DNA of 64,000 bases from Bacteroidota bacterium (GTDB lineage Bacteria; Bacteroidota; Bacteroidia; Chitinophagales; Chitinophagaceae), in the NCBI GenBank assembly GCA_030706735.1, contig JAUZNZ010000006.1, positions 62,001 to 126,000 on the forward strand. The letters run 5' to 3'. The notes under the pieces were generated by a model that had not been told where the DNA came from, did no database searches, and saw only the letters and a program-made list of their open reading frames with translations. The position numbers and the translations under genes are program-made. Every line of letters starts with the position of its first letter. Positions within the stretch are counted from its first letter, which is position 1. Positions 15,656 to 26,086 of the stretch are shown here, piece after piece.

Positions 15656-16864
15656 ATGAACCATATTCTCCGATATGCTATGGGCTGCCTTGCCGGCGCC
15701 TTTTCCTTCACGTTCTGCGTGGCGCAGGCGGACAGCCTGGCCCGCAGGACCGATTCTGCCGGGACCCGTCGCCAACTGGCGATCTTTGCCCCTCTATACC
15801 TGGATTCGGCATTCGATGCAACGGGCAATTATCGTTACGATAAGAATTTCCCCAAGTTTATCAACCCTGGCCTGGAATTCTATGAGGGGGCGAAGCTGGC
15901 GATGGATTCCCTGGCAGCGGAACATGCCATGCTGGAGGTGCATGTTTATGATACCCGCTCGGCTACCCAAAGTCTGGGCCAGATCCTGCAGAGTACAGAC
16001 TTTCAGCAAACAGGGCTTATCCTGGGCCACGTCAACGCAGGGGAAATGCTGCAGCTGGCCGCAGCGGCATCTCGGTTGAACATTCCCTTCGTCAACGTCA
16101 ATTACCCGAATGATGGAGGCATCACCAACAATCCGGATGTGGTACTCCTGAATTCGACGCTGAGGACGCATTGCGAAGGGATCTACCGGTATGTGCAACG
16201 AAATTATGCCACCAAACCAATCATTGCCTTCCGAAAGAAGGGTCCCCAGGAAGATCGGCTGAAAAATTATTTCATCGAGATTGAAAGAACGACTGCCTCC
16301 GTTCCTCTTAAAATAAGGTATGTTACCCTGGACGACAATTTCGACGCTGCCGTACTTGCGCCATACCTCGACAGCAATACACAAACCATTTGCCTGGCTG
16401 CGAGTCTCGATGAAAATTTCGGCAAATCATTGTGCCTGGCCCTGGCCTCTCTGAGCAAGACCTACCACAGCACGGTTATCGGCATGCCCACCTGGGACAA
16501 CATCTCCGATTTCTCCTTACCGGAATACGCCAATGAGGAGATCATCTACACCACCCCCTTCTATGTCAATCCGACCGACAACCTGACGATACGCATCCAA
16601 CAATATTTCAGGACGAAATTTTATTCGCGCCCCAGCGACATGGTGTTCCGCGGTTATGAGACCACCTGGCGCTTTGCGAAACTGCTGATCCAATATGGGA
16701 AAGACGTTGCCGGCAGCGTCGGAGTGAAGAAATACAAAGTATTCAATGACTTCGATATCCAGCCCGTCTTTCTCAACAAACAGACGATGACCCTGGATTA
16801 TCTGGAGAACAAGAAGCTCTATTTCATCAAGAAGCTTGACGGGAACGTCACCACCGTGAACTGA
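15656..16864 (+). CDS. Secreted periplasmic-binding-protein (PBP1 / branched-chain amino acid receptor)-like protein
   Basis: Signal peptide ending FCVAQA; PBP1-like fold segments (LEFYEGAKLAMDSLAAEH, FVNVNYPNDGGITNNPDVV). Confidence 0.65.
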   Translation: MNHILRYAMGCLAGAFSFTFCVAQADSLARRTDSAGTRRQLAIFAPLYLDSAFDATGNYRYDKNFPKFINPGLEFYEGAKLAMDSLAAEHAMLEVHVYDTRSATQSLGQILQSTDFQQTGLILGHVNAGEMLQLAAAASRLNIPFVNVNYPNDGGITNNPDVVLLNSTLRTHCEGIYRYVQRNYATKPIIAFRKKGPQEDRLKNYFIEIERTTASVPLKIRYVTLDDNFDAAVLAPYLDSNTQTICLAASLDENFGKSLCLALASLSKTYHSTVIGMPTWDNISDFSLPEYANEEIIYTTPFYVNPTDNLTIRIQQYFRTKFYSRPSDMVFRGYETTWRFAKLLIQYGKDVAGSVGVKKYKVFNDFDIQPVFLNKQTMTLDYLENKKLYFIKKLDGNVTTVN

Positions 16865-16897: not shown

Positions 16898-17938
16898 ATG
16901 CCACTCATAGAATTTACCGATAAAGGATTGTATTGTCCGCAAGGCGCTTTTTACGTCGATCCCTGGCGACCGGTGGGATCGGCGGTCATTACGCATGCGC
17001 ATAGCGATCATGCGAGGGCCGGATGTTCGTCCTATCTCTGCCATAGGCTGACCCGGCCGCTGTTGGAATTGAGGCTGGGCCCTTTGTCCTATGAAAGCAT
17101 AGAATGGGGTCAACCGGTCTACCGGAATGGGGTACGCATAAGTTTACATCCTGCGGGGCATATCATCGGCTCTTCGCAGGTTCGGGTCGAGTTCCAGGGC
17201 GAGGTCTGGGTGGTCAGCGGAGATTACAAATTGGAGAATGACGGCCTGAGCGGGTCATTCGAGCCGGTTCCCTGTCACAGCTTTATTACCGAATCCACTT
17301 TCGGATTGCCCATTTACGACTGGAAACCTCAATCGGAAATTTTTGCCAGCATCCGGAATTGGGTCTCCGGGAACAGGGAAGAGGGTAAGTCATCGATACT
17401 TATCGCCTATAGCCTGGGAAAGGCGCAACGACTCTTATCCTGCCTGAAGGAGGCGACAGATATGATCTTTGTGCATGGGGCCATTTGGAACGTGCACCAG
17501 GCCTTGGTCCGTGCCGGCGTTAGGCTGCCACCGGTTCACTGGGTAACCGCGGAGACGCCGAAAGATATCCTGAAGGGGGCCGTTGTAATCGCCCCGTCCG
17601 GGGCGGAAGAGTCTCCCTGGATCAGGCGCTTCTCTCCTTATGAGGTGGGTGTGTGCAGCGGCTGGATGCAGGTTCGCGGAAATTTCCGGAGAAGGAACGT
17701 CAACGCCGGTTTTGCCCTGAGCGATCATGCCGACTGGAAAGGGTTGCTGCAGGCCATCGGGGCCACCGGAGCTAGAAAAGTATTCGTCACGCATGGATTC
17801 CAGGCTGCGCTGAGCCGATATTTAAATGAGAAAGGCGTCGAATCGGGAGAAGTAAAGACGGAATTTGGAGAGGATGAGGACGCAGGCGGGTCCTTGCCGG
17901 CGGAAGATGCAGCGAAAAAGGAGGGCGGGCATGGGTGA
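16898..17938 (+). CDS. Ligase-associated DNA exonuclease (metallo-beta-lactamase/beta-CASP-like fold)
   Basis: HAHSDHARAG motif, HPAGHIIGSSQVRVE, VVSGDYKLE; overlaps the downstream ligase start. Confidence 0.88.
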   Translation: MPLIEFTDKGLYCPQGAFYVDPWRPVGSAVITHAHSDHARAGCSSYLCHRLTRPLLELRLGPLSYESIEWGQPVYRNGVRISLHPAGHIIGSSQVRVEFQGEVWVVSGDYKLENDGLSGSFEPVPCHSFITESTFGLPIYDWKPQSEIFASIRNWVSGNREEGKSSILIAYSLGKAQRLLSCLKEATDMIFVHGAIWNVHQALVRAGVRLPPVHWVTAETPKDILKGAVVIAPSGAEESPWIRRFSPYEVGVCSGWMQVRGNFRRRNVNAGFALSDHADWKGLLQAIGATGARKVFVTHGFQAALSRYLNEKGVESGEVKTEFGEDEDAGGSLPAEDAAKKEGGHG

Positions 17939-19583
17939 GACATTGCCAGGCAACGGCGGGCTGAAGCAGTTCGCGAGTCTCGTGAATCTGCTCGGCTCGA
18001 GCACGGGAACAAATGACAAACTGGAGGCATTGCAAAATTATTTTGCCGAGGCCTCCGATGCGGATAAGGTTTGGGTTATCGCCTTATTCAGTGGCAGGAA
18101 GCCGAAGAGAACGGTGAATTCGACGCAACTTCAGGAATGGTGCCGGGAATTGACAGGCTATCCGAAATGGTTATTCGAGGAATGCTATCATACGGTAGGA
18201 GACCTGGCTGAAACGATCGCGTTATTGTTGCCGGAAGAGCGGACCGGAGACGCGGATATCAGGCGGCCCGGTGCCGGTCTCTCCTACTACCTTGAAAAAC
18301 TGATGGACATCGGGAAGGAAGATGAACCGGGCAAGAAGAAATTCGTCCTGGGTTGCTGGAACTTGATGGATCGGGAAGAGCGTCTTGTATTCAATAAACT
18401 GATCACCGGCGGTTTCCGGATCGGTGTATCGCAGAAGATGATGGTGAATGCGCTGGCGGCTTCAGTGAACCTAAGCCCTTCTGTAATTGCACACCGGATC
18501 AGCGGTAACTGGGATCCCTCATCGACCTCCTTTGACGCGCTTCTGAGCGAACAATCGGTGGAGCAGGATATTTCAAGACCCTATCCATTCTATCTGGCGT
18601 ATGCCCTGGAAAGTGAACCGTCTGCCCTGGGCAGGCCGGAGCAATGGCAGGCCGAGTGGAAGTGGGATGGGATCCGTGGACAACTCGTCAAAAGGGCGGG
18701 GCAATTATTCGTATGGAGCCGGGGTGAAGAATTGATGACCGGGAAATTCCCGGAATACCAGGAATTGATTCCTCTGTTGTCCGACGGCGTCGTGCTTGAC
18801 GGGGAGATCATCGGGTTGCAGGAAGGAGCGGAGATCAAGCCACTTCCCTTCGCGGCATTGCAAACGCGGATCGGCAGAATAAAGGTCACTAAAAAGCAAT
18901 TGACCGAAGTACCGGTGGCCTTCATTGCTTACGATCTGCTGGAATCCGAAGGCGCAGACTGTCGTGAACAGCCCCTGGGGCAGCGCCGGGAGTGGCTGGA
19001 GAAGATCGTGAAGGAGGCAGACAATCCGATCCTTCGCCTGTCGCCGCTGATCCATTTTTCGGAGTGGGAAGAACTCAGGCGATCGCGCGAATTGTCGAGA
19101 GAAACGGGGAGCGAGGGGATCATGTTGAAAAAGAAGAACTCTCCGTATCAGGCGGGCCGGCGGCGAGGCGACTGGTGGAAATGGAAGATCGATCCTCTTG
19201 TGATCGATGCCGTCATGATCTATGCTCAAAAAGGCCATGGGCGCAGGAGCAATCTGTATACGGACTATACTTTTGCCGTGAGGGATGGGGATAGGTTGGT
19301 GGGGTTCACCAAGGCTTATTCCGGACTGACAGACAAAGAGCTGGCCGAGGTCGACGCCTTTGTCAAGCGGAATGCGATCGAAAAATTCGGGCCGGTGCGC
19401 ACCGTTAAACCGGAATTGGTCTTCGAAATAGCCTTTGAAGGCATTGCCGCCTCTTCAAGACATAAATCCGGAGTGGCTTTACGGTTCCCGCGAATCAACA
19501 GATGGCGGAAAGACAAGAAGATAAATGAGATCAATACCCTCGAAGACCTCCAAAGGATCTTGCGGGAGGCGGCAAGAAAATAA
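17931..19583 (+). CDS. ATP-dependent DNA ligase
   Basis: Adenylation motif AEWKWDGIRGQL, VVLDGEIIG, EGIMLKKKNSPYQAGRRRGDWWKWK. Start moved from 17865 to ATG overlapping the exonuclease stop. Confidence 0.93.
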   Translation: MGETLPGNGGLKQFASLVNLLGSSTGTNDKLEALQNYFAEASDADKVWVIALFSGRKPKRTVNSTQLQEWCRELTGYPKWLFEECYHTVGDLAETIALLLPEERTGDADIRRPGAGLSYYLEKLMDIGKEDEPGKKKFVLGCWNLMDREERLVFNKLITGGFRIGVSQKMMVNALAASVNLSPSVIAHRISGNWDPSSTSFDALLSEQSVEQDISRPYPFYLAYALESEPSALGRPEQWQAEWKWDGIRGQLVKRAGQLFVWSRGEELMTGKFPEYQELIPLLSDGVVLDGEIIGLQEGAEIKPLPFAALQTRIGRIKVTKKQLTEVPVAFIAYDLLESEGADCREQPLGQRREWLEKIVKEADNPILRLSPLIHFSEWEELRRSRELSRETGSEGIMLKKKNSPYQAGRRRGDWWKWKIDPLVIDAVMIYAQKGHGRRSNLYTDYTFAVRDGDRLVGFTKAYSGLTDKELAEVDAFVKRNAIEKFGPVRTVKPELVFEIAFEGIAASSRHKSGVALRFPRINRWRKDKKINEINTLEDLQRILREAARK

Positions 19584-19597
19584 CTAAATTTACAGGT

Positions 19598-20980
19598 ATG
19601 AAAAGATGGGTGGCGCTAGCCGTGATCGGGAGCCTGTTGCTGGCATTTACCAGGATCCTGGATGACTATTCGGAAGACAAACCAGTTCCCATTCCGCCCA
19701 GTCCGCAGCGAAGCGGCGATGTCAAGAAAGGCTATGCCTATCTTACAACCGGAGACTATCTGAAAAGCGGGATCCCGTATGGTCTTTTTCTTATCGGCAC
19801 TGGAAGGAACCGGGAGAATTACCTGCAGCGGGACTCCCCCAATACCTATATCAGCCATGAGTACACCGCCGTCGCGGCGCCCAATGGCGAGCTCGTCGTT
19901 GCGCCAAATTGTCTGCAATGTCATTCCGAAGTTTTCAACAATAAGCTATATATCGGCCTTGGGAACAGCCTGATCGATTTTACCGACCGCCGAAAGCTGA
20001 ATCCCCGTAATGCGGCCATTGCCGAATCACTACTGAAAAGAGGAGATCCGAGGAGGCTGGAAGCGGCCGAGCCGTTCATCAAGGCGATGAAGGCCATTGC
20101 CGGGCAGTTGTATACGGAAGTGCGTGGTGTTAATTCTGCGGATAGATTGGCCGACCTGCTGGTCTCGCACAGGGACCCGGTCACCTTCCGTTGGAGCGAC
20201 GAACCGCTTATGGATGTTCCGCAAGGGGTCGTACCGACGGATGTTCCTGCGTGGTGGCTGCTCAAGAAAAAGAACGCCATGTTCTACAACGGATTTGGGC
20301 GGGGCGACTTCGGCCGGTTTCTCATGGCTTCGAACCTGCTGACGGTCAGCGATACGTCGGAGGCCAGGGAAGTGGACAATCATATCAATGATGTACTCGC
20401 CTATATTTATTCGCTTGAGCCCCCAAAATATCCATATCCGGTAAATACCGCATTGGCAAGGCAAGGCAGCGTTCTGTTCGTTCAGCACTGTTCCAAGTGT
20501 CATGGAAACTATGGTCATGGCGGGGATTATCCCAACCTCCTGATCCCCGAGTCGTTGATTGGAACCGATTCTCTTCTGTTCAAGGCCAACTATCAAAGCC
20601 CGCAGTTCATAGGGTGGTTCAACAAGAGCTGGTTCGCCCAGGGTGATCATCCAGCCAGGCTGGAAGCCTTCGACGGCTATATTGCGCCGCCTCTTGACGG
20701 CATCTGGATCACCGCGCCTTACCTGCACAATGGTTCTGTCCCCGACCTCGAAGGGGTTTTGAACAGCAAGGCCAGGCCGCGTTATTGGTCCAGGGACTAT
20801 GCCAATCTTCAGTATGACTATACCCGGGTAGGCTGGAAATATTCCAGGATGGAAGCGCCCGGGGGGACCACGGTCTACAATACGACCTTGCCCGGCTATG
20901 GTAATTACGGGCACAGCTTCGGGGATCAACTGACGGAAAAAGAAAGAAGAGCCATCATCGAATACTTAAAGACACTTTAG
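19598..20980 (+). CDS. c-type cytochrome (two CXXCH motifs)
   Basis: CLQCH and CSKCH motifs; N-terminal signal/anchor MKRWVALAVIGSLLLAF; stop 3 nt before the helicase ATG. Confidence 0.85.
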   Translation: MKRWVALAVIGSLLLAFTRILDDYSEDKPVPIPPSPQRSGDVKKGYAYLTTGDYLKSGIPYGLFLIGTGRNRENYLQRDSPNTYISHEYTAVAAPNGELVVAPNCLQCHSEVFNNKLYIGLGNSLIDFTDRRKLNPRNAAIAESLLKRGDPRRLEAAEPFIKAMKAIAGQLYTEVRGVNSADRLADLLVSHRDPVTFRWSDEPLMDVPQGVVPTDVPAWWLLKKKNAMFYNGFGRGDFGRFLMASNLLTVSDTSEAREVDNHINDVLAYIYSLEPPKYPYPVNTALARQGSVLFVQHCSKCHGNYGHGGDYPNLLIPESLIGTDSLLFKANYQSPQFIGWFNKSWFAQGDHPARLEAFDGYIAPPLDGIWITAPYLHNGSVPDLEGVLNSKARPRYWSRDYANLQYDYTRVGWKYSRMEAPGGTTVYNTTLPGYGNYGHSFGDQLTEKERRAIIEYLKTL

Positions 20981-20983
20981 TTC

Positions 20984-23533
20984 ATGCATCTCAGGGAGAC
21001 GGTCGGATATCGCGTCATCCGGGAATGGATGGCTGCGGGGGGGCGCGAGCCTTTTGCCTTCCAGGAAACGACCTGGCAGCATATCCTGGATGGTCGATCC
21101 GGATTGGTCAATGCGCCTACGGGCTGCGGCAAGACCTATTCGGTATTTCTGGGGGCCCTCATCGATTTCATCAATCTCCATCCTGACACCTATAAGACAA
21201 AGTCAGCTAACGGCCTGCAGTTGCTTTGGATCACGCCATTGAGAGCCCTTGCGAAGGACATCGGCCGCGCGATGGAGGAGGTCATCCGAGAAACGGGGAT
21301 GAGCTGGCGGGTGGGCATACGGAATGGCGATACGGAGCTTAGCGAGCGTCAAAAACAAAAGCGGCGGATGCCCGAGGTCCTGATCACCACGCCCGAAAGC
21401 CTTCATTTATTGTTGGCTCAAAAAGACTATCCCGGCTTATTCCGGTCGCTGAAGATCCTGGCTGTCGATGAGTGGCATGAGCTGCTGGGCAGCAAGCGTG
21501 GCGTTCAGGTAGAACTCGCCGTGTCGCGGATCGTAGGCATAGCCTCAAGCCACAAGCCACAAGTTGCAAGTGGGGGCGAAGAAGATGCGATGGTCAAGGA
21601 TATTTCCGTTTGGGGGATCAGTGCAACCATCGGCAACCTGGATGAAGCGAAAGAGGTATTGCTATCGCCTTTGAATGCATCCGCGGCCCCCGCCGCGGGC
21701 GTCATTGTCAGGGCGCAAATCGACAAGCCCATCGACGTGGAGTCCATCCTGCCGGACGAGATCGAGAACTATCCCTGGGCGGGTCATCTGGGACTGAAGC
21801 TCATCCATAAGGTGATACCTATTCTGCTGGAGAGCCGGACGACGCTGATCTTTATAAATACGAGGGGCATGAGTGAGACCTGGTATCAGTCCCTGTTGTC
21901 TGCCTGTCCTGACCTGGCCGGAGCCATCGCTTTGCATCATGGATCGATCGATATGGGGTTGCGCACCTGGGTGGAGGAGGCTCTGCATGAAGGCAAACTG
22001 AAGGCCGTAGTGTGTACGGCAAGCCTGGACCTGGGTGTGGACTTTCGGCCGGTGGAGACCGTTATCCAGGTCGGCAGCCCGAAAGGCGTGGCGAGATTTT
22101 TACAAAGGGCGGGAAGGAGCGGGCACCAGCCCGGGCAGGTTAGCAAGATCTGGTTCCTGCCTACACACTCCCTCGAGTTGGTGGAGGCTGCAGCCCTTAA
22201 ATCGGCGATCCGCATCAATTTTATTGAGAGCCGGACTCCGATGACGATGTGCTTCGACGTGCTGATACAATACCTCTCCACGCTGGCCATTTCAGACGGC
22301 TTTTTCCCGGACGATATTTTAAGGGAGGTGAGATCCACCTATTGCTTTTGCGACCTCAGCGAAGACGAATGGAATAATATCCTGTATTTTATCACGGAGG
22401 GGGGCGCGGCCCTGGGCCAGTACGATGAATTCAGGAAGGTCGAGGTGACCGAAACCGGCCTATATAAGATCAACAGTCGCCGTATCGCCATGCGACACCG
22501 GTTGCATATCGGGACCATCGTCAGCGATACGATGCTGAAGGTAAAATTTATCAGCGGAGGCTATGTTGGCGTCATCGAAGAATATTTTATTTCCAGGTTA
22601 AGTCCGGGAGATGTATTTACTTTGGCCGGGCGCCGGCTTGAATTCGTGATGATCAAGGATATGACGGCGCTGGTGAGAAAGTCCGCCGCCAGGAAGTCCA
22701 TTGTCCCGAGCTGGAATGGTGGGCGGATGCCGTTGTCTGCCAATCTGGGCCTGATGTTGCGCAGGAAACTTAACGAAGCGTCTGCCCTGGTGAGCCGTCG
22801 TTCCGGAAAGCAGGCGGCAGATATCGAACTGGAGGCCTTGAAGCCACTCTTCGCCTTGCAGGCGGGACTTTCACATGTGCCGGTGGAGGATGAATTGCTT
22901 ATCGAACAGATCGAGACCCGGGATGGTTTCCATCTTTTCGTTTACCCCTTTGAAGGCAGGTTGGTGCATGAGGCGATGGCGGCCCTATTGTCATTCCGGA
23001 TCAGCCGGATCACGGCGATCAGTTTTTCGTTTGCGATGAATGACTACGGGTTCGAGCTTCTGAGCGATCAACCTATTCCCGTGGACGATTCGAACGTTTA
23101 TGAGCTCTTTGCCTGTGGGGACCTGAGCGGCGATATTCAGCGAAGCGTGAACAGTGCCGAAATGGCCAGGCGAAAATTCAGGGATATTGCCGTGATCGGG
23201 GGACTGATCTTCCAGGGATATCCCGGAGAATTCAAAAAAGCCAGGCACCTGCAGTCATCGGCCTCTTTGCTATTCAATGTATTCAGCGAGTATGATCCGC
23301 ATAACCTGCTGATCCGGCAGGCCTATAATGAAGTAATGGCCCAACAGATGGAAGAGGAGCGATTGAGGAATATGCTGGAACGGATCCAAAAAGGCCGGAT
23401 CGTCCTCCGTTTTCCGCAGCAATTGACGCCATTCTGTTTTCCCCTGAAAGTCGATAGCATGCGGGAGGATCTCTCTTCGGAAAAATTGGAGGACCGGGTC
23501 AGGAAAATGCAAGCGCAGTTAAACAGAATTTAA
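20984..23533 (+). CDS. Ligase-associated DNA damage response DEXH-box helicase (Lhr-core-like)
   Basis: NAPTGCGKTYSVFL (Walker A), AVDEWHELL (DEVH-like box), VWGISATIGNL, FLQRAGRSGHQPGQ (motif VI). Confidence 0.92.
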   Translation: MHLRETVGYRVIREWMAAGGREPFAFQETTWQHILDGRSGLVNAPTGCGKTYSVFLGALIDFINLHPDTYKTKSANGLQLLWITPLRALAKDIGRAMEEVIRETGMSWRVGIRNGDTELSERQKQKRRMPEVLITTPESLHLLLAQKDYPGLFRSLKILAVDEWHELLGSKRGVQVELAVSRIVGIASSHKPQVASGGEEDAMVKDISVWGISATIGNLDEAKEVLLSPLNASAAPAAGVIVRAQIDKPIDVESILPDEIENYPWAGHLGLKLIHKVIPILLESRTTLIFINTRGMSETWYQSLLSACPDLAGAIALHHGSIDMGLRTWVEEALHEGKLKAVVCTASLDLGVDFRPVETVIQVGSPKGVARFLQRAGRSGHQPGQVSKIWFLPTHSLELVEAAALKSAIRINFIESRTPMTMCFDVLIQYLSTLAISDGFFPDDILREVRSTYCFCDLSEDEWNNILYFITEGGAALGQYDEFRKVEVTETGLYKINSRRIAMRHRLHIGTIVSDTMLKVKFISGGYVGVIEEYFISRLSPGDVFTLAGRRLEFVMIKDMTALVRKSAARKSIVPSWNGGRMPLSANLGLMLRRKLNEASALVSRRSGKQAADIELEALKPLFALQAGLSHVPVEDELLIEQIETRDGFHLFVYPFEGRLVHEAMAALLSFRISRITAISFSFAMNDYGFELLSDQPIPVDDSNVYELFACGDLSGDIQRSVNSAEMARRKFRDIAVIGGLIFQGYPGEFKKARHLQSSASLLFNVFSEYDPHNLLIRQAYNEVMAQQMEEERLRNMLERIQKGRIVLRFPQQLTPFCFPLKVDSMREDLSSEKLEDRVRKMQAQLNRI
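21541..21568 (+). repeat. Heptanucleotide tandem repeat (AGCCTCA AGCCACA AGCCACA AGTTGCA) inside the helicase gene
   Basis: Four consecutive 7-mers of consensus AGYYNCA, encoding the linker SSHKPQVAS. Confidence 0.7.
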
Positions 23534-23542
23534 CGATTGAAT

Positions 23543-24016
23543 ATGAAAAAAACGCTCTTTATCATTCTGATCGTGCTGGGTCTTATCCAGTTCATCCGGC
23601 CGACCTTGAACGTATCCACGGTTGTGTCCTCCAATGATATCAATCGGCGCTATCCCGTACCAGACAGCGTATTGAAGCTATTGAAGCGCTCCTGTTACGA
23701 TTGTCATAGCAACAATACGGTTTATCCCTGGTATGACAGGGTGCAGCCCGTTGCCTGGTGGCTGCAATATCACGTCAATCATGGAAAGCGGGGCCTGAAC
23801 TTCTCTGAATTCCTGACCTATACCCCAAAACGGAAAGTGCACAAATTGCAAAGTATCAGCGACCTGATCAAGAGCGATGACATGCCGCTGAGCAGCTATC
23901 TGTGGATACATACCTATGCGAAGCTGAATGACGGCGACAAATCGCTGATCACGCATTGGGCGGATAGCCTGCGTGAGGTTATCGCTCCCGACACCCTTGC
24001 CCAAGCCGGCAAGTAG
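23543..24016 (+). CDS. Membrane-anchored haem-binding domain protein (one CXXCH)
   Basis: MKKTLFIILIVLGLIQFIRP anchor; RSCYDCHSNNTVYPWYDRVQPVAWWLQYHV resembles the haem-binding domain family. Confidence 0.8.
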   Translation: MKKTLFIILIVLGLIQFIRPTLNVSTVVSSNDINRRYPVPDSVLKLLKRSCYDCHSNNTVYPWYDRVQPVAWWLQYHVNHGKRGLNFSEFLTYTPKRKVHKLQSISDLIKSDDMPLSSYLWIHTYAKLNDGDKSLITHWADSLREVIAPDTLAQAGK

Positions 24017-24532
24017 CTAGGATAGATGCTTGAGCTGGGTCGCGTAAAGGATGATGAAGACAGCCGGTATGATCAGGCTGGTCACCAGGGTAACTCCTAT
24101 CATCGCGCCCGTCCCGATAAAGATGAACAGCGCTACCACAGGCACGATCTCACCGATCACATATAACGAGAAGCCCATTTTTTTTCGCTGGCGCATCTGG
24201 GTGGCCCCATAAAAACACAGCACGTACCCAATCAATGCAAGGAGTAAGATGGGAATCCTGTTCTCAAACATCTTATGATACATTTCGAGCATTTCCGGTC
24301 CCATCATCTTTTTTGCAAAGTCAGGGAGATTATCGAGGCTTCCCTGCTTTTGAAGCATCAATTCATAGGTCGCCTGTGCGGTGAAGAATCCGTACACCGA
24401 AAAGATTAAACCCAGGCCGCATCCGATATAGGTCAGGATGGTGAGGACATTAAGGGTCTCGGGGACCTTCTTCTTTTCGGGATCCCAATTTGCTGCATTG
24501 CCGGCCGGTTGTTTTTGTTGGATATCCGTCAT
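24017..24532 (-). CDS. Integral membrane hypothetical protein
   Basis: Multiple hydrophobic segments; intact ORF with good start. Confidence 0.7.
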   Translation of the reverse strand: MTDIQQKQPAGNAANWDPEKKKVPETLNVLTILTYIGCGLGLIFSVYGFFTAQATYELMLQKQGSLDNLPDFAKKMMGPEMLEMYHKMFENRIPILLLALIGYVLCFYGATQMRQRKKMGFSLYVIGEIVPVVALFIFIGTGAMIGVTLVTSLIIPAVFIILYATQLKHLS

Positions 24533-24614
24533 GAGTTAGTTATTTTTGTCGGTCTAAGTAAATACAATTTTTAATCACTTCAAAGCGGATCACCCCATTA
24601 TTTCAGCATTTATT

Positions 24615-25277
24615 ATGCAACCTCCCGTTCCATTCCATTTCAAAGAGCAGCATTTATGGCTTTCGGCTGACCGGTGTATCTTCTGGGAAGAGGAGCAGGC
24701 GCTGATCGTTTCCGATCTGCATTTCGGGAAGACGGGGCACTTCCGGAAACATGGGATCGCGGTGCCGCAGGCCGTTTACCGTGAGGACCTTCAACGATTG
24801 CTGATGCAGATCCAATATTTCCGACCCAGGCAACTGCTGATCGCGGGCGACCTTTTCCATAGCCGTGAAAACAAGGAATTGGAATTATTCTTAAAGTGGA
24901 GGAAAGACTTTGCCGGCCTGGCGATCCGGCTTATCAAGGGCAATCATGATATTCTGCATGAGGACTGGTATGAGGCGGCGGAGATCATGATCAGTCCGGA
25001 CAAATGGCAGGCAGGGGATTTCCTCTTTATGCATGATATCGGGTCTTCGGCCGGTGAGACGGATTCCGGCCTTTATGCCTTTACCGGCCATATCCACCCG
25101 GGGATCCGGATAAATGGGATGGGTAAGCAAAGCTTACAATTCCCTTGTTTTTACTTCGGGGCCAGCCATGCGCTGCTGCCTGCATTTGGACGCTTCACCG
25201 GAATGGTCAGTATCGAGCCAGGTGGGGATGACCATGTTTTCGCCATTGTTAAGGACAAGGTCATGCAATTTCAGTGA
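24615..25277 (+). CDS. pdeM: Ligase-associated DNA damage response endonuclease PdeM (metallophosphoesterase)
   Basis: VSDLHFGKTGHFRKHG, IAGDLFHSR, KGNHDIL, FTGHIHPG metallophosphoesterase motifs; locus context. Confidence 0.9.
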   Translation: MQPPVPFHFKEQHLWLSADRCIFWEEEQALIVSDLHFGKTGHFRKHGIAVPQAVYREDLQRLLMQIQYFRPRQLLIAGDLFHSRENKELELFLKWRKDFAGLAIRLIKGNHDILHEDWYEAAEIMISPDKWQAGDFLFMHDIGSSAGETDSGLYAFTGHIHPGIRINGMGKQSLQFPCFYFGASHALLPAFGRFTGMVSIEPGGDDHVFAIVKDKVMQFQ

Positions 25278-26027
25278 TCAGTTCATTTTCTTCTTTAGCA
25301 CGCTAACCTGATCCTGAAGATTACTCACCAGGCTGGCCAGCTGATTTACATCCCATCGTTGCTGCGTATTCGCCTTGCTCATGATCATCTGGGCCTTCCA
25401 TACTTCAAGCACATCATCGGCATTCATGTTGTATGGTTGGTATGCCGTATTGTCGCTGACCATGGTCAGTTTAGTCCTGGATTTGTTGTTCTTCAGCACT
25501 CTCTTATACACTATCCCTTCATTGCGCGAAACGACGACATAGGTTTGGTTGCTCTTCACAGCCTCCAGATCCTCTACCTTTTCGCCGACGATGATCGAGC
25601 CGCTTGGGGTAGGCAGCATGGAATCGCCGACGATCTCAAATGCGCGATAGGTGCCCGGCGCAAGCATGGGCAAAGTGAAGGTGTTCAATTCGTCCAGGAA
25701 TTCGGGATCGGCATAACCCGCAAGGTAGCCGGCAGCCGCCTTAACGGGAACAAGCTGTATCTCGTTGGAGGCCGCAGCCATTTTCTGCGCCCGCCTCTTG
25801 GAGAGGTAGCTGCCCTTGGTATCGCTTAGCTCTTTGCGAAGCAATTCATCCAGGGTTAGTTTGAACAGGTCGCCAACGATCTCGAGCACTTCGATCCGGG
25901 GCTCCGCCCGCTCCTCCTCATAAGCTCCCAGAAGCGATCGCTTGATCTTCAGCTTAGTAGCAAACTCTTCCTGGGTCCAACCCCTCAGCTTGCGAAGGTA
26001 TTTCAGGTTTTTTCCTGCAACAGACAT
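25278..26027 (-). CDS. HTH (XRE) + S24/LexA-like peptidase transcriptional regulator
   Basis: N-terminal HTH (NLKYLRKLRGWTQEEFATKLKIKRSLLGAYEEERAEP); S24 serine motif GDSMLPTPSGS, lysine motif VYKRV, candidate Ala-Gly site in VKAAAGYLAGY. Confidence 0.85.
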   Translation of the reverse strand: MSVAGKNLKYLRKLRGWTQEEFATKLKIKRSLLGAYEEERAEPRIEVLEIVGDLFKLTLDELLRKELSDTKGSYLSKRRAQKMAAASNEIQLVPVKAAAGYLAGYADPEFLDELNTFTLPMLAPGTYRAFEIVGDSMLPTPSGSIIVGEKVEDLEAVKSNQTYVVVSRNEGIVYKRVLKNNKSRTKLTMVSDNTAYQPYNMNADDVLEVWKAQMIMSKANTQQRWDVNQLASLVSNLQDQVSVLKKKMN

Positions 26028-26029
26028 AG

Positions 26030-26086
26030 ACTAATAAATTTAGTTTACTTGAGGGAAAAATTACTAAATAATCCTAAAATTACTAG
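26030..26086. promoter_or_regulatory. Candidate operator: clustered ACTAA/TTAGT half-sites upstream of the S24 regulator
   Basis: ACTAA (26030), TTAGT (26040), ACTAA (26063), ACTAG (26082), plus direct repeat AAAATTACTA at 26057 and 26076 (19 nt apart). Confidence 0.4.

Follow-up and report, generated by a model that had tools for sequence, protein, structure and literature searches.

The locus described here lies in a window of 64,000 nucleotides (G000:C57:62001-126000; assembly GCA_030706735.1, contig JAUZNZ010000006.1, positions 62,001 to 126,000) from a 5.05 Mb genome of the Chitinophagaceae; by window we mean this whole stretch of DNA. It contains the four genes of a ligase-associated DNA damage response cluster, which encode a metallo-beta-lactamase (MBL)-fold exonuclease (EXO), an ATP-dependent DNA ligase (LIG), an Lhr-type helicase (HEL), and the endonuclease PdeM. 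Two genes for c-type haem proteins, the di-haem CYT and the mono-haem HAEM, a gene for a small membrane protein (MEM), and the gene of an S24 regulator complete the locus (Table 1). All eight genes had been listed in a preliminary description of this DNA. They were found where it had placed them, profile scores confirmed their identities, and the spacings it gave of 3 nt from the CYT stop to the HEL ATG and of 9 nt from the HEL stop to the HAEM ATG were right. The helicase was closest to sequences of Puia-related Chitinophagaceae, with 81% identity to that of locus L005.

Table 1. Genes and sequence elements of the locus. Positions refer to the window; HTH, helix-turn-helix.
Feature	Position	Strand	Supporting evidence
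EXO, ligase-associated MBL-fold exonuclease	16898..17938	+	TIGR04122, 451.3 bits (cut-off 325)
LIG, ligase-associated ATP-dependent DNA ligase	17931..19583	+	TIGR04120, 618.2 bits (cut-off 400)
CYT, predicted exported di-haem c-type protein, RoxA-like fold	19598..20980	+	PF21419; two CXXCH; best PDB match 4b2n
HEL, Lhr-type ligase-associated DEXH helicase	20984..23533	+	TIGR04121, 1052 bits (cut-off 850)
HAEM, mono-haem Haem_bd protein, predicted N-terminal anchor	23543..24016	+	PF14376, 153.3 bits (cut-off 27); hydrophobic N-terminus
MEM, small membrane protein	24017..24532	-	DUF4064-like, weak, below cut-off
Bacteroidetes-type promoter-like site TTG-N-TAnnTTTG	24515..24548	+	consensus match only
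PDEM, ligase-associated endonuclease PdeM	24615..25277	+	TIGR04123, 210 bits (cut-off 150)
S24 regulator, most likely non-canonical (Bacteroidetes) LexA	25278..26027	-	HTH_3 and Peptidase_S24; conserved residues (PMC8565304)
SOS operator CTAATAAATTTAG	26031..26043	.	exact CTAA-N5-TTAG; 3 nt upstream of repressor ATG
Second operator CTAAAATTACTAG	26074..26086	.	one mismatch; 30 nt beyond first operator

The four cluster enzymes all scored above the curated cut-offs of their families (TIGR04120, TIGR04121, TIGR04122, TIGR04123) and are encoded within 8.4 kb. Their order EXO-LIG-HEL-PdeM is that of the known ligase-associated cluster and is often held outside the Chitinophagaceae as well. A known operon encodes LigB, an Lhr helicase, a phosphodiesterase, and an MBL nuclease (PMC10140301), and Lhr-Core, MPE, LigB, and Exo of Pseudomonas putida were studied by Ejaz & Shuman 2018, as cited in PMC8301817 and PMC10140301. 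The window locus differs from the known cluster in that CYT is inserted between LIG and HEL, and that HEL and PdeM are separated by HAEM plus a membrane gene of opposite orientation. The start of LIG is best set at ATG 17931, resulting in an overlap of 8 nt with EXO, and one copy of LIG was found in the window genome. As proposed for the known cluster, the four enzymes would act in the cytoplasm, where they process damaged DNA and seal it again. In another genome of the family (G114; contigs C1, C30, and C43) ligase and helicase are present in three copies each.

EXO, LIG, CYT, HEL, and HAEM follow each other on the plus strand with successive gaps of -8, 14, 3, and 9 nt and probably form a single transcript. 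Upstream of EXO and on the same strand are guaA and a gene for an exported protein to which no family was assigned. Since the gaps from guaA to this gene and from there to EXO are only 6 and 33 nt, the transcript may begin as far upstream as guaA. The preliminary description regarded both cytochromes as co-transcribed with the helicase. For CYT and HEL this is plausible because of the short gaps, the common strand, and the order kept within the family. HAEM is not conserved at the locus. The stop of MEM, which is encoded in the opposite orientation, directly abuts the stop of HAEM, and the gene parts PdeM from the other plus-strand genes. A promoter-like site was located 66 nt upstream of the PdeM ATG as the sole match between positions 16600 and 26400 on both strands; the motif has 4 overlapping matches in the 64-kb window. 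The intervening inverted MEM gene and this promoter-like site suggest that PdeM, unlike in the known cluster, is probably transcribed separately. Scans of the locus for sigma-70 promoters and Rho-independent terminators resulted in matches at the level of shuffled sequences.

The conservation of the arrangement was assessed in 150 Chitinophagaceae genomes, of which 110 contained HEL or a large part of it, 68 LIG, and 40 CYT, and in 20 helicase loci and 11 CYT loci from outside the family. In 18 of the 38 genomes with both genes CYT was located at most 300 nt upstream of HEL on the same strand, and in 25 it was found within 5 kb. For comparison, LIG and HEL were directly adjacent in 32 of 68 genomes and within 5 kb of each other in 50. 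The gap between CYT and HEL was 1-40 nt in many family loci. The CYT-HEL arrangement is more than chance. Within the clade of the window it was retained in 18 of 19 loci, and on the helicase tree it is scattered over the family, with 13 changes as compared to 30.5 after shuffling. This fits a single old arrangement within the Chitinophagaceae that persisted in part of the lineages and disappeared from many.

Outside the family, none of the 20 helicase loci had CYT, HAEM, or an S24 gene nearby, and no helicase was adjacent to CYT at any of the 11 CYT loci. Two loose associations of CYT relatives with repair genes are probably coincidence and were rejected as evidence of a tie to repair outside the family. 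In L149 the helicase is inverted and 13 kb away from the CYT relative. In L160 (L160:13783-18872) a ligase-associated exonuclease gene is situated about 2.5-3.5 kb from the CYT relative in opposite orientation, with neither LIG nor HEL nearby. Inside the family the guaA block is syntenic too, and therefore shared inheritance can account for the linkage of CYT and HEL without shared function. Within the literature collection searched, we found no paper linking an Lhr helicase to a cytochrome c.

Both CXXCH motifs of CYT and its MauG motif PYLHNGSVP were conserved in 21 homologues. The Pfam match of CYT was the RoxA-like domain PF21419, and its best PDB match by sequence was RoxA (4b2n, 1.9e-31). 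RoxA also was the only significant match in a fold search of the PDB (E 9.4e-10), for which the model had a mean predicted local distance difference test score (pLDDT) of only 62. Two CXXCH motifs, the MauG motif, and the fold are thus shared with RoxA and the family of fatty-acid di-haem peroxidases (PDB 4b2n; PA2077/PA2078, PMC4496055). In contrast, CYT comprises only 460 residues compared to 662 in the 4b2n chain. Residues F301, W302, and F317 of RoxA surround the catalytic haem (residue roles from PMC6797691 and PMC4496055) and align without gaps with F229, Y230, and S245 of CYT. Since F317, which is required for rubber cleavage, is replaced by an invariant serine and W302 by tyrosine, cleavage of rubber by CYT is unlikely. 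An assignment as rubber oxygenase RoxA was ruled out by the replacement of F317 and by a score of 115 bits against the NCBIfam cut-off of 1000. With 123 bits, CYT also remained below the curated cut-off of 150 for the di-haem cytochrome c peroxidase NF040606.

The N-terminus of CYT is a hydrophobic segment, and relatives outside the family start with lipobox-like sequences, e.g. LVFAC and GFAAC, so that the protein is predicted to be located outside the cytoplasm. Haem of the c-type is attached in this compartment. Following export and maturation, which HAEM would undergo as well, CYT probably acts on a periplasmic substrate, by redox or oxygenase chemistry. The protein would share its expression with HEL but work in another compartment.

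The S24 regulator consists of an N-terminal HTH_3 domain (PF01381) and an S24 peptidase domain, and its Ala99-Gly100 cleavage site and Ser136-Lys175 dyad were invariant in 16 homologues. The winged HTH domain of canonical LexA (PF01726) was not matched by the regulator; HTH_3, HTH_19, HTH_31, and, weakly, HTH_25 were. UmuD is the sole further S24 protein of the genome. In Bacteroidetes, canonical LexA is missing and its place is taken by an HTH_3-S24 repressor, whose operator in Chitinophagaceae, among others, is CTAA-N5-TTAG (Sanchez-Osuna 2021, PMC8565304). The regulator shares with this group the two domains, the Ala-Gly site, the Ser-Lys dyad, and the operator at its own and at SOS genes, and no difference was found; the main text of that study does not mention an adjacency of the lexA gene to the ligase-associated cluster. 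In the genome 20 exact CTAA-N5-TTAG sites were counted. Those upstream of SOS genes include one at recA (distance 66 nt), one at umuD (umuDC; 18 nt), two at imuA (imuA-imuB; 16 and 38 nt), and a pair at a dnaE-type polymerase gene. In relatives a second operator recurs about 23 nt further upstream of the regulator gene.

From operator and residues, the S24 gene of this Puia-related organism is predicted to encode most likely the general SOS repressor of the genome, i.e. the known non-canonical LexA of Bacteroidetes, which settles the identity of the regulator at this level. The protein would repress its own promoter via CTAA-N5-TTAG and, elsewhere in the genome, recA, umuDC, imuA-imuB, and the dnaE-type polymerase gene. 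RecA-stimulated self-cleavage would lift this repression. The earlier suggestion that the S24 protein is damage-responsive is in agreement with the invariant Ala-Gly, Ser, and Lys residues and with the SOS operators at its own gene, recA, umuDC, and imuAB. Exact operators were also observed no more than 25 nt in front of three other genes: one with an ORF6N domain, one of HTH type that is divergent from a HEPN gene, and one resembling panC (G000:C8, L106; G000:C16, L111; G000:C68, L117). In two related loci (L039:14981-15958 and L096) a second protein with two CXXCH motifs, about 325-343 amino acids in length, is encoded next to the S24 gene.

To relate the regulator to the repair genes, the region from -300 to +120 of each gene was scanned for the operator in about 100 related loci, with dinucleotide shuffles providing the expectation. 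An exact operator was present at the regulator gene in 48 of 51 loci, as compared to 0.6 expected, and absent from 33 EXO, 36 LIG, 34 CYT, 99 HEL, 12 HAEM, and 74 PDEM regions. Sites with one mismatch occurred at or below chance for each gene except PdeM, where 15 were seen and 11.8 expected; this excess was non-significant (shuffle maximum 17). In the window, no site with up to one mismatch was located upstream of EXO, LIG, CYT, HEL, HAEM, or PdeM. Control of the repair cluster by the regulator through CTAA-N5-TTAG is not supported, and judged by its operators the ligase-associated cluster is outside the regulon of the SOS repressor. That the locus is capped by the regulator holds in so far as the S24 gene was found near HEL or PdeM in roughly every second family locus whose flanks were long enough, and at none of the 20 helicase loci outside the family.

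The best reading of these data is a family-specific variant in gene content of a known cluster, without evidence of a redox-sensing function in repair. Quite probably, two ordinary systems are located side by side: the ligase-associated repair cluster, accompanied by genes for predicted exported haem proteins, and the gene of the general SOS repressor. The preliminary description instead considered a redox-sensing or haem component of a DNA-repair operon, an interpretation that is not supported as a general feature, as haem genes were missing from the 20 helicase loci outside the family, CYT relatives reside elsewhere there, and HAEM is usually unlinked even within the family. It is hardly credible that the two haem proteins, CYT and HAEM, together constitute a haem-based redox sensor with a direct effect on the repair enzymes. 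Their genes are interspersed among the repair genes and both products have CXXCH motifs, but they carry N-terminal export or anchor segments and would receive their haem outside the cytoplasm, and the RoxA fold of CYT is enzyme-like. A local damage-responsive switch of the repair locus, the role originally suggested for the S24 regulator, is very improbable. The repressor is of the self-cleaving type and usually close by in the family, but the proposal is unsupported because the operator is found at the regulator's own gene and at none of the repair genes in 33-99 loci per gene, marking recA, umuDC, and imuAB instead, and helicase loci outside the family lack an S24 neighbor.

Some points weigh against the reading as two ordinary systems. 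LexA may control the cluster via a diverged or distant site, or another damage regulator may do so. CYT stays close to HEL (66% within 5 kb) almost as consistently as LIG, the accepted partner, does (74%). CYT also co-occurs with HEL above expectation (odds ratio 10, Fisher p 1.3e-4, uncorrected for relatedness and genome size); a tie of CYT to the ligase was rejected (p 0.35). Because of this conservation near the level of LIG and the co-occurrence with HEL rather than LIG, CYT is possibly more than a passenger. It could cooperate functionally with the Lhr-type helicase, co-expression letting periplasmic oxidant or lipid-peroxide chemistry and cytoplasmic DNA repair jointly answer oxidative stress. 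The frequent position directly upstream of HEL, the short gaps, and the almost complete retention in the window's clade agree with this, as does the rarity of CYT without HEL, which was observed in 2 of 40 genomes. The pair was also kept in ten genomes without any ligase, including both congeners of the window organism; in the latter CYT does stand beside HEL, but both lack LIG and neither has HAEM there. Such a partnership is nevertheless unlikely, given the lack of conservation outside the family, the repeated loss inside it, the predicted export of CYT, and a linkage that may be shared inheritance like that of the guaA block. Moreover, genomes that lack the helicase are small as a tendency, and this could by itself account for the co-occurrence. 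Simple operon hitch-hiking at present explains the CYT-HEL linkage.

The oddity that remains at this locus is a RoxA-like di-haem gene which in many genera of the Chitinophagaceae, also in ligase-free genomes, has its place beside an Lhr helicase. To our knowledge, the substrates of the Lhr cluster are not known, and a genetic link to oxidative chemistry, if real, would therefore be useful. We regard it as unlikely that in the Chitinophagaceae a functional partnership between the RoxA-like periplasmic protein and the Lhr-type helicase has been conserved, both serving one co-expressed response, e.g. to oxidants, even in the absence of ligase and exonuclease.

HAEM is single-copy in the window genome. 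It shares the single CXXCH in the family domain with other Haem_bd proteins (PF14376) and scored above the gathering cut-off. A Haem_bd gene was found in 125 of the 150 family genomes, in only 7 of these within 6 kb of the helicase. Unlike HAEM of the window, genes of this family are usually unlinked to the repair cluster, and with a location elsewhere in 118 of 125 genomes HAEM was rejected as a cluster member. About a dozen loci of the family carry MEM in the interval from HEL to PDEM. Two further neighbors are absent from the window: a histone-deacetylase-family gene (PF00850), which in many family loci follows PdeM with a 4-nt overlap (e.g. L009:13217-14131), and a large minus-strand DUF5916 gene, a frequent neighbor of the S24 gene on its PdeM side in the family (e.g. 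L048:12163-14634). In L036, L042, L044, and L084, HAEM is situated directly upstream of PdeM, even where both genes are moved away from or inverted relative to the helicase. In three of these four loci the HAEM-PdeM pair adjoins genes for a nucleotidyltransferase and an APH-type kinase.

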